From Akkermansia muciniphila (GTDB lineage Bacteria > Verrucomicrobiota > Verrucomicrobiia > Verrucomicrobiales > Akkermansiaceae): DNA of 64,000 nt. Under the pieces are notes generated by a model. That model worked only from the letters and a program-made list of their open reading frames with translations. It was not told where the DNA came from and did not search any database. The stretch spans positions 1-64,000 of the forward strand of contig CAMDAD010000002.1 of the NCBI GenBank assembly GCA_945888515.1, written 5' to 3'. The stretch's first letter is position 1, and every line of letters starts with the position of its first letter. Positions 48,299-52,236 of the stretch are shown one piece after another. Both the position numbers and the translations under genes were made by a program.

Positions 48299-49804
48299 TT
48301 AGGATTCGTGGGAAAGGGTGTTGGCGAGGGCGATGGCCTTGAGCATGCCTTGGGCTTTGTTGCAGGTTTCTTGGTATTCGTACGTGGGATCCGAATCGGC
48401 GACGACGCCTGCTCCGGCCTGCACGTAGGCTTTGCCGTTTTTCACCAAACAAGTGCGCAAGGTAATACAGGAATCGTGCGAGCCATCGAAGCCGAAATAG
48501 CCAACGGCTCCGGCGTAGGCGCAGCGTTTGGTGGGCTCCAGCTCGTTGATGATCTGCATCGCGCGGATCTTGGGCGCCCCACTCACGGTTCCGGCGGGAA
48601 AAGTTGCGCGCAGCACATCGTAGGCGCTGTGCGAGGGATCGAGCGTGCCGGTGACGTTGGAAACGATGTGCATGACGTGCGAGTAGCGTTCGATGATCAT
48701 GAAGTCATCGACTTTCACCGAACCATGTTTGGCGATGCGTCCGACGTCATTGCGGGCGAGGTCGATAAGCATGAGGTGCTCGGCTCGTTCTTTCGGATCG
48801 TTGAGGAGATCGGCGGCGAGGGCATCGTCTTCCTCGGGTGTTTTCCCTCTCCAACGTGTGCCAGCGATGGGGCGGATGTCGATGCGGCCCTTGATCGAAC
48901 GCACATGAACTTCCGGCGAACTACCGACGAGGGCGAAGTCGCCCAGCTCTAACAAAAACATGTAGGGCGACGGGTTGACGTGGCGCAGGGCGCGATAGAG
49001 ATCGACAGGTGCTCCGCTGAACGGCGTTTCGAAACGCTGGCTCGGCACAAACTGGAACACGTCACCGGCGGCGATGTATTCTTTTCCTTTGCGCACATTT
49101 TCCTCGAACTGGGCTTGCGTGGTATTGCTTTGCGCCGGGGCACTTTGCGGTGGCGTGAGACCATTCAGCGCTGGCACGTGCAGCGGGCGATTGAGAATTT
49201 CCACCATCGCCGCGACGCGACCACGCGCTTGATGATAGGCTTCTTCAGCAGAACCGGCTTCGTCGGTGAAGGCATTGGCGATGACCAGTAGACGGCGCAG
49301 TCGATGGTCGAACACCAGCATCGTGTCGGCTAACAGAAACAGTGCATCAGGGATTTGCAGGTCATCGTTTGGGGCGGTGCCAATGGTAGGCTCGAACTGT
49401 CGCACCGCATCGTAGGAAAGGTAACCGAGCATTCCACCCGAAAACGGCGGTACTGCGCCGTGACTGACGGGGTGATAGCAGGACATCTGGCGCTCCAATT
49501 CGGCGAGCACATCATCCTCCACCTTGATCTTCTGCACGAGGCTATCGCGCGTGATCGTGATGGTTTTCCCGTGGGCCGTAAAGGTGCTGCGCGGTTTGCT
49601 GCCGACGATGGACCAACGTCCGCCTTTTTCCGTGCTTTCGGCACTCTCTAACAAAAAAGCATGCGCGCCATCGCGGATTTTCAGATAGGCGGACAGAGGT
49701 GTTTCAAAGTCCGCCGCCAGCTGCGTGTAGACAGGGATGACATTTCCCGACTGCGATAGGCGGAGAAATGATTCGAGAGAAGGTTCTACGGGAAGAGAAT
49801 GCAC
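48299..49804 (-). CDS. trpE: anthranilate synthase component I
   Basis: Converts chorismate to anthranilate in the first committed step of tryptophan synthesis, with TrpG. 501 aa from GTG 49804. The length and the N-terminal regulatory part ([25 protein letters not shown], with the LLES element that binds tryptophan in feedback-controlled TrpE) favour TrpE over PabB. The catalytic half shows [45 protein letters not shown] and [15 protein letters not shown]. No tryptophan-codon leader peptide or attenuator was found in 49805-50029. The trpD and trpC genes are not adjacent. Confidence 0.95.
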
Positions 49805-50029: not shown

Positions 50030-51145
50030 TTAGCTTCTTTTCACTGCTTGTTTCGCGAGTGGCAGAAGATCGCTAAAGGATTCGATGAAGTGGGCGGCTT
50101 TTTGTTTCACGGCATCGCGTGCGATGACTCCGCCGAAGCCAATGAAGAGATCGACTTCGCTGGAGGACTCGAGATCGGAAATCCCATCGCCGACCATGAT
50201 GGTAGTTTTGGGAAGCATCGCTTGTTTCCACTCGCGGATGATTTGTGGTTTTCCGCCATTGCGTGTGGTTGGATAATCCGAGCCGTAGCCAGCGTAGTTT
50301 CCTTCCGCATCGTGATGCAGGGGGACGGCTTCGATGAAAGAAATGCCTAAGTCGAGGGCCAAAGGTTCGATCAGGGGAGCAAAGCCGCCACTGAGAATCA
50401 CGATGGTCCAGTCTTCGTCGCGCAAGGCCTGCAAAGTCTCGCGCACGCCGGGGACAATGGTCTCAATGTAGCGCTGTGCTACGGCATCGCAGGTGGCTTT
50501 GTCCGGCCGCAGAATATCCATGCGGCGGGGAAAAACTTCATGAAGTGGGACGGTTCCATTCATGCCGGCATTCGTCAGTGCTACAATTTCTTGAAACACC
50601 TCCTCACCCCGTTCCCGTGCGAGTTCATCAATGCCTTCGATGCTCGACAACGTGGAATCGCAATCGAAAAATGCGATTTTCCCGCGCTTGCGGGTGGGTG
50701 GTTCAATAAAAACTTCGGTATCGAGAGGCGTAAGGTCGAAGAGCTCGACGATATCGATATTCGACAGACGAATGCAGCCATGACTCGCGGGAACGCCAAT
50801 CAGCGCTTCCTGATTGGTGCCATGGATGTAGATACAGCGATCCAAGGTATTTTTGTTTTGCGCGTCCATGCCATCGAGTCGGAGGATGCGTGAAGTGATT
50901 AGATCGTGCGATGAGGTATCGTCTGGGTTCCAGAGTCCTACGGGTTCGCGCTTCTGAAAAATTGTGCCGAGCGGTTGCTCGTAGCCGATTTTTTCACAGA
51001 TGCGAAACTGTCCTGTCGGTGTGCGATAGCTGTCCTTGGTAAAGCCCACGCCCTTCGCTCCAGAGGAAATGGGATACTCGCGAATCACTTCATCTCCATC
51101 AGACAAAGTGAGCCATTGGTCATCGATCGAGATGTGAATGTTCAT
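50030..51145 (-). CDS. fusion: L,D-transpeptidase (YkuD) domain and SerB-like HAD phosphatase
   Basis: 371 aa in two clear domains. Residues 1-150 are a YkuD domain with the active-site set His108 (YIHGTNQ) and SHGC at 121-124 followed by IRLSN. Residues 155-371 are a HAD phosphatase of the phosphoserine phosphatase type: DCDST at 161-165, LSGG at 251-254, the motif III lysine at 299 (GGKPQ) and GDGISD at 319-324. There is no signal peptide, so the YkuD part would stay in the cytoplasm unless exported in another way. It follows a class V aminotransferase gene after 20 bases. That neighbour suggests serine synthesis (SerC-like plus SerB-like). Such a fusion is not one I know as standard. Confidence 0.88.
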   Translation of the reverse strand: MNIHISIDDQWLTLSDGDEVIREYPISSGAKGVGFTKDSYRTPTGQFRICEKIGYEQPLGTIFQKREPVGLWNPDDTSSHDLITSRILRLDGMDAQNKNTLDRCIYIHGTNQEALIGVPASHGCIRLSNIDIVELFDLTPLDTEVFIEPPTRKRGKIAFFDCDSTLSSIEGIDELARERGEEVFQEIVALTNAGMNGTVPLHEVFPRRMDILRPDKATCDAVAQRYIETIVPGVRETLQALRDEDWTIVILSGGFAPLIEPLALDLGISFIEAVPLHHDAEGNYAGYGSDYPTTRNGGKPQIIREWKQAMLPKTTIMVGDGISDLESSSEVDLFIGFGGVIARDAVKQKAAHFIESFSDLLPLAKQAVKRS

Positions 51146-51165
51146 TTGTCAGATCGAAAAATCTG

Positions 51166-52236
51166 TTAGCCTAACACATCATCCATAGCGGCGATCAGTT
51201 CGTTCATGGTGGCAGAGGTTTCGTTGCCCATGTTCGAGATGCGGAAGGTGATGCCTTTGATTTTGCCGTAGCCGCCATTGATGAGGAAGTTGTGCTTGCT
51301 CTTGAGGTTTTTAATGAATGTGGATTGATCAAAGCCCTCGGGTGTATGGAAACAGCTGAGCGACACAGAGCGGAATCCCTCAGGCGCAAAATGTTCAAAG
51401 CCGTGGCGCGCGGCCCAGGCGTGAATGAGTTGGTTGTTTGCGCGATGGCGAGCAAAGCGGTTTTCCATGCCTTCTGCGGCGATGGTTTCTAGGATGTGTT
51501 GCAGGCCGAAAATCAATGAGATCGCTGGAGTGGACGGTGTGTTGTTCGCAGCCGCATTCTTCTCGAACTCGACAAAGTCGAAATAGTAACCGCGATCGCT
51601 GCTGGTCTTCGAGCGTTCCAGTGCAGCCTCAGAAATGGCGAAAATCGTTAGGCCTGGTGGCAGTGCCATGGCTTTTTGTACGCCAGCGAGCAAGACATCG
51701 ATGCCGAGATCATCCATGGCATGGGGCACGGCGGAAAAAGAGGAAACGGTATCGACGATGAGCAACACGTCGGGGAAAGATTTCACCACGGCGGCAATCG
51801 CGGCGAGATCGCTCATCACTCCGGTAGAGGTCTCGTTGTGGATAAACGTGACGGTATCGAATCCTCCCTCGGCAAGTTTCGTGCGCACTTGGGCGGGGTC
51901 GATCGGTTGGCCCCATTCATATTGGAGTTTTTCGACTTCCTTACCGCATTTTTTCGCGACATCGAACCACTTGTCCGAAAAAGCGCCATTGCAGAGTGTG
52001 AGTACTTTTTTATGCGTTAGATTGCGAAGTGCGGCTTCCATGACGCCCCAAGCGGAGGAAGTGGCGAGAAAAACGGGGCGCTTGGTGCCGGCGAGTTGTT
52101 GCAGGCCTGGCTGAGTGGAGGCGTAGAGAGCCTCGAATTCAGAACCGCGGTGGCCGATCATAGGACGCGACATCGCCGCGTAGGTGGCAGGAGAAACATC
52201 GATCGGACCAGGAATGAAAAGTTTGGGAGTAGGCAT
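51166..52236 (-). CDS. class V aminotransferase (alanine-glyoxylate / phosphoserine type)
   Basis: PLP-dependent aminotransferase of 356 aa. The N-terminus KLFIPGPIDVSPATYAAMSRPMIGHRG is that of the serine-pyruvate/alanine-glyoxylate group. The PLP aspartate is in LLIVDTVSSFSAVPHAMDDLGIDVLL and the lysine in AGVQKAMALPPG. In some bacteria and archaea enzymes of this group act as phosphoserine aminotransferase. The next gene in the operon has a SerB-like phosphatase domain, which supports that role here, but serine-glyoxylate exchange is the other possibility. Start ATG 52236. Confidence 0.85.
   Translation of the reverse strand: MPTPKLFIPGPIDVSPATYAAMSRPMIGHRGSEFEALYASTQPGLQQLAGTKRPVFLATSSAWGVMEAALRNLTHKKVLTLCNGAFSDKWFDVAKKCGKEVEKLQYEWGQPIDPAQVRTKLAEGGFDTVTFIHNETSTGVMSDLAAIAAVVKSFPDVLLIVDTVSSFSAVPHAMDDLGIDVLLAGVQKAMALPPGLTIFAISEAALERSKTSSDRGYYFDFVEFEKNAAANNTPSTPAISLIFGLQHILETIAAEGMENRFARHRANNQLIHAWAARHGFEHFAPEGFRSVSLSCFHTPEGFDQSTFIKNLKSKHNFLINGGYGKIKGITFRISNMGNETSATMNELIAAMDDVLG

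Follow-up and report, generated by a model that had tools for sequence, protein, structure and literature searches.

The gene at 50030–51145 on the minus strand of the window (the whole 64,000-nucleotide stretch of an Akkermansia muciniphila contig analysed here) joins a YkuD domain to a SerB-like HAD domain in a single frame of 371 residues with an ATG start. We regard it as a new architecture of known enzymes and not as a new pathway, and it probably carries two independent cytoplasmic enzymes on one chain, a predicted ElsL-like carboxypeptidase and a predicted phosphoserine phosphatase. The YkuD domain, acting through Cys124 and His108, would take the terminal D-alanine off recycled tetrapeptides, and Mpl would reuse the resulting tripeptides. 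The HAD domain, with Asp161 as nucleophile and Mg2+, would be the phosphoserine phosphatase of the cell and would complete the serine route begun by SerA and continued by the SerC-like aminotransferase encoded next door. The chain would have arisen, most likely once, in one family of Verrucomicrobiota, through loss of the stop codon between ykuD and serB genes lying side by side on one strand, and the physical link most likely amounts to shared expression and little more.

The leaderless, ElsL-like YkuD domain spans residues 1–149 (50699–51145, minus strand), with a match to PF03734 over residues 3–147 (71.2 bits against a Pfam cut-off of 23.4) that places it in the superfamily. The HAD-IB domain follows at residues 154–371 (50030–50686, minus strand), with PF12710 matching residues 158–326 (45.8 bits, cut-off 27). 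Between the two lies a short junction of residues 150–153 (50687–50698, minus strand), as set by the domain limits and by the junction sequences of 33 fused proteins. The sequence-only reading had described a complete active site in each half, and all of the motifs are where it put them: HGT from residue 108 and SHGC at 121–124 in the YkuD half, and DCDST at 161–165, LSGG at 251–254, Lys299 within GGK and GDGISD at 319–324 in the HAD half. Its remark that the protein has no signal peptide also holds, since the codons in frame 5′ of the ATG are TGA CAA and no other start codon in this frame could supply a leader.

An AlphaFold2 model of the fusion, made with 16 sequences, has a mean pLDDT of 85.4 and a pTM of 0.75. 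Matches from the structure search with the whole model fell mostly on the HAD half; residues 1–149 match Bacillus subtilis YkuD with a Z score of 17.0 (rmsd 1.5, 109 residues aligned). The comparisons below draw on a sample of 57 genomes, the window's own and 56 relatives. The fusion is present in 13 of these: all ten of the window's genus, and G015, G027 and G033 from the same family.

The HAD half and its probable role in serine synthesis

The HAD half exceeds the cut-off of the HAD-IB model TIGR01488 (64.9 bits against 45), and its best relatives among solved structures are phosphoserine phosphatases. It resembles SerB and human phosphoserine phosphatase (PSPH) in the HAD-IB fold, in the substrate and catalytic residues checked, and in the structural match of model residues 154–362 to PSPH (Z 25.7, rmsd 2.0, 201 aligned). 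It differs from SerB in carrying an N-terminal YkuD domain and in scoring 109.3 bits against the 144.15 demanded by TIGR00338, a cut-off that none of the 57 genomes reaches. The SerB set of catalytic and substrate residues (DxDST, Glu, Met, Arg, Ser, Lys and GDGxxD) is complete in the window protein. Asp161, Asp163, Glu170, Met195, Arg208, Ser252, Lys299, Asp320 and Asp324 align with the PSPH active site. No HAD residue checked is missing from more than one of the 30 fused sequences, apart from Ser164, which is kept in 28.

The window's own genome has no SerB-type match besides the fusion, counting as SerB type any protein with at least 79 bits to TIGR00338. The same is true of 12 of the 13 genomes with the fusion, the other (G008) having a second match that is partial and contains stops; the check put forward earlier had asked for loss of stand-alone serB in such genomes. 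Across the sample, 36 of the 57 genomes have the SerB type and 11 have ThrH above its cut-off, and the two never occur together (Fisher p = 2e-6, uncorrected for kinship). ThrH (phosphoserine phosphatase/homoserine phosphotransferase, NF010109) belongs to a different HAD-IB family from the SerB type of the fusion, and is probably an alternative phosphoserine phosphatase of this order. The ten remaining genomes have neither (G011, G021, G024, G028, G034, G036, G049, G050, G051 and G053), a point against the reading preferred here.

The exception among the 30 fused sequences comes from one further genome, G315: a fused protein (L207, 1387–2613) whose HAD domain is of full length and lacks Asp161, Lys299 and Asp324. 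Its YkuD half keeps His108 and Cys124, with Ser121 replaced by Gly, and ThrH is encoded elsewhere in the genome (300.8 bits, cut-off 133). A dead HAD domain together with ThrH is what would be expected if the HAD half is a phosphoserine phosphatase and the two halves are functionally separable.

The neighbouring genes point the same way. A class V aminotransferase (51166–52236, minus strand; PF00266) is encoded upstream of the fusion, with 20 bp between the end of its gene and the ATG. It reached no NCBIfam equivalog cut-off (62.5 bits to serC_3 against 401.65, and 59.2 to PRK05355 against 253), and matches at or above 57% identity occur in 54 of the 57 genomes of the order. Three of the six other PF00266 matches in the genome were tested and proved to be of cysteine desulfurase type (L040), class I aminotransferase type (L042) and BioF type (L044); L039 was placed with the SufS-type desulfurases on its score alone, and L043 and L045 are the two that remain. 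The neighbouring aminotransferase is probably the SerC of this genome, and of the order too. SerA scores 607.8 bits against an equivalog cut-off of 454. The SerC–SerB serine route suggested earlier is accordingly a likely one, as the genome has SerA, a single SerC candidate among the matches tested and a single SerB-type match.

The aminotransferase adjoins the fusion in eight of the ten genomes of the genus, at distances of no more than about 60 bp (0.73 kb in G007), but lies away from it in G004 and G008 and in the fused genomes of other genera in the sample. In G002 a contig end splits the fusion: its start follows the aminotransferase on one contig, which then ends, so that the first YkuD residues are on a different contig from the rest. 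The trpE gene downstream (anthranilate synthase component I; 48299–49804, minus strand) is outside the conserved unit and was not seen next to the fusion in L010 or L011. In the gap from the aminotransferase to the fusion, a motif scan found no promoter-like or terminator-like site on the minus strand, which is weak evidence, the scan giving 1 promoter-like site against 2.2 expected and 9 terminator-like sites against 5.7.

The HAD domain might instead have a different small-molecule substrate, such as histidinol phosphate or a sugar phosphate from recycling. For four of the ten bacteria covered in PMC5764234, SerB-like proteins are put forward as the histidinol-phosphate phosphatases that had been missing, and the score under the TIGR00338 cut-off would agree with a substrate of this kind. 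Set against it are the standing of the fusion as sole SerB-type match in a genome with SerA, its position behind the only SerC candidate among the matches tested, the mutual exclusion with ThrH, and the identity of the nearest solved structures. We consider a different substrate unlikely; the separation of the SerB type from ThrH, and the presence of SerA and a SerC candidate, make phosphoserine more likely than histidinol phosphate.

Origin of the fusion and a proposed link between its halves

Other genera of this family have ykuD and serB as two genes that lie side by side on the same strand. The unfused pair is preceded by bioB in 10 of 11 loci (L022, L023, L031, L033, L036 and L115–L119; not in L035). 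A β-ketoacyl synthase gene precedes the fusion in all ten fused loci examined outside the genus (L019–L021 and L108–L114), one of which, L109, has the order bioB–ketoacyl synthase–fusion. The synthase of L021 has fabF as its best NCBIfam match, with 77.1 bits where the cut-off is 493.75. Taken over L109, L115–L119, L022, L023, L031, L033 and L036, bioB, the divergent ketoacyl synthase, ykuD and serB form a mixed cluster that occurs in varied combinations.

A joint YkuD and SerB tree of 41 sequences, which is unrooted, has one branch (support 99/99) that separates the 30 fused proteins from the 11 unfused pairs. The fused sequences do not fall on one branch in trees of YkuD only, which call for four changes (141 sequences) or two (169 sequences). 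Most simply, there was one fusion event within one family of Verrucomicrobiota. The direction of the change is taken as fusion, not fission, since unfused genes are widespread among the relatives; the joint tree, being unrooted, is also compatible with a single fission.

In two genomes of family f6 (L222 in G039 and L223 in G042), the C-terminal part of a ketoacyl synthase and a YkuD domain share one reading frame. These YkuD domains fall outside the lipoprotein group described below, and their nearest sequences by path, without strong support, are the leaderless verrucomicrobial YkuD proteins. As YkuD thus has two different fusion partners, fusion seems to follow gene adjacency.

The sequence-only reading had suggested that serine supply and the cell wall might be linked. 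In the strongest form of this idea, recycling and serine supply would be coupled through the one chain, muropeptide state and phosphoserine flux would sense each other, and the fusion would for this reason have been kept in three genera. In favour of such coupling, the fusion is present in those genera with a single change of state in the joint tree, 29 of 30 fused sequences retain the main catalytic residues in both halves, and the MurC of Verrucomicrobium spinosum accepts L-Ser in vitro (PMC4803751). The same paper gives L-Ala at position 1 of V. spinosum peptidoglycan, which for this species speaks against a stem-peptide serine as what connects the two. Further points against coupling are the loss of the HAD active site in G315 with the YkuD His and Cys kept, the many relatives in which ykuD and serB are kept apart, and the mixed make-up of the gene cluster. 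The serine–wall link is not supported, since a leaderless YkuD of another family has a ketoacyl synthase as its partner instead. We rate coupling as improbable, and infer that the two predicted enzymes are functionally independent.

The MurB/MurC fusion of V. spinosum offers a parallel, being likewise a fusion of cytoplasmic wall enzymes confined to lineages of the same phylum; its partners share one pathway (PMC4803751), whereas YkuD and SerB belong to different pathways.

The YkuD half and its probable role in peptidoglycan recycling

The YkuD half very probably has a cytoplasmic task, probably that of an ElsL-like L,D-carboxypeptidase of peptidoglycan recycling, as judged from sequence comparison, and the earlier suggestion of a YkuD domain with a cytoplasmic task therefore seems well founded: the domain is leaderless and ElsL is its best match. 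PMC8649774 describes ElsL as a YkuD protein without a leader, for which a role as cytoplasmic L,D-carboxypeptidase of wall recycling has been shown, and reports orthologs in all orders of Verrucomicrobia. The ortholog survey described there was limited to proteins of 105–200 residues and longer ones were dropped, so the 371-residue fusion would be missing from its list.

The half resembles the ElsL of Acinetobacter baumannii in its leaderless YkuD domain of about 150 residues, in the catalytic Cys and in a genome with no match to the LdcA family. It is unlike ElsL in being joined to a phosphatase and in its score: the best YkuD-type NCBIfam match of the fusion is to ElsL (NF040925), at 99.9 bits against a cut-off of 270. 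None of the 57 genomes reaches this cut-off, and L163, a leaderless relative from Moraxellaceae, also falls under it (220.9 bits). Exported lipoproteins reach scores with NF040925 no lower than those of leaderless YkuD proteins, and the window's own genome has such a lipoprotein paralog (L002). Since NF040925 fails to discriminate, YkuD types were sorted by leader and tree. The lipoprotein YkuD sequences form one group, of 27 sequences with SH-aLRT 94 or of 33 with SH-aLRT 91; the deep branches between the leaderless verrucomicrobial YkuD proteins and proteobacterial ElsL are weak. His108 and Cys124 are invariant in all 30 fused sequences. The histidine of SHGC (His122, codon 50780–50782) is His in 17 of the 30, and C, W, Q or K in the other 13, which counts against the ElsL-like reading.

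The distribution of other recycling enzymes is on the whole consistent with an ElsL-like role. Peptidase family S66 (PF02016), which includes LdcA, had no match in 52 of the 57 genomes, the window's own included, and in four of the five genomes that do have one the YkuD relatives all carry a leader and lipobox, as judged by eye. By a hand tally with inspection of the N-termini, 46 of the 57 genomes (G039 and G042 among them) have a YkuD protein without a lipoprotein leader and 11 have none. S66 is found in one of the 46 (G007, where it accompanies the fusion) against four of the 11 (Fisher p = 0.004, uncorrected for kinship); the other seven of the 11 are also without PF02016 and, like G007, count against the reading. 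Mpl, which reuses the tripeptide, is above its cut-off in 52 of the 57 genomes, including the fusion genome analysed here.

The Pfam name YkuD, and the fact that YkuD domains are mostly found in secreted enzymes, might point to a genuine L,D-transpeptidase with an unusual route to the envelope. We regard this as very improbable, given a frame without a leader, a YkuD domain tethered to a cytoplasmic metabolic enzyme, and eight other YkuD-family matches in the same genome, of which six of the seven frames inspected start with a signal-like stretch by eye.

Conservation and significance of the fusion

Among 384 genomes of the class, 21 contain a full-length match to the fusion without a stop, all in three genera of one family. 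A scan of named genomes, covering 80 of the 220 loci that encode a relative, adds at least the isolates Haloferula sp. BvORR071, H. rosea, H. luteola and Luteolibacter marinus, and several metagenome-assembled genomes of Akkermansiaceae or Verrucomicrobiaceae. The same architecture in other Verrucomicrobiota, which had been proposed as a check, is thus present in Haloferula and Luteolibacter. Over five pairs within the genus, dN/dS ranges from 0.029 to 0.107 for the YkuD half and from 0.036 to 0.109 for the SerB half, values that are rough because dS is partly saturated (up to about 2.3). Relatives with unfused, neighbouring ykuD and serB exist, as a sequencing or assembly error uniting two separate genes would suppose, but such an error is in effect ruled out by the same in-frame fusion in many independent assemblies, isolates included. 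Our searches of open-licence papers gave no publication on a fusion of YkuD and phosphoserine phosphatase, and within them this conserved architecture has gone unremarked.

Thus, a conserved ElsL-like and presumably cytoplasmic YkuD enzyme occurs in an architecture that the survey of PMC8649774 would have dropped, and automated annotation may name the fusion by one half only. The division of genomes between the SerB type and ThrH, together with the dead HAD domain of G315, provides a natural test of function. For several genera of Verrucomicrobiota, the fusion points to the likely L,D-carboxypeptidase of recycling and the likely phosphoserine phosphatase.
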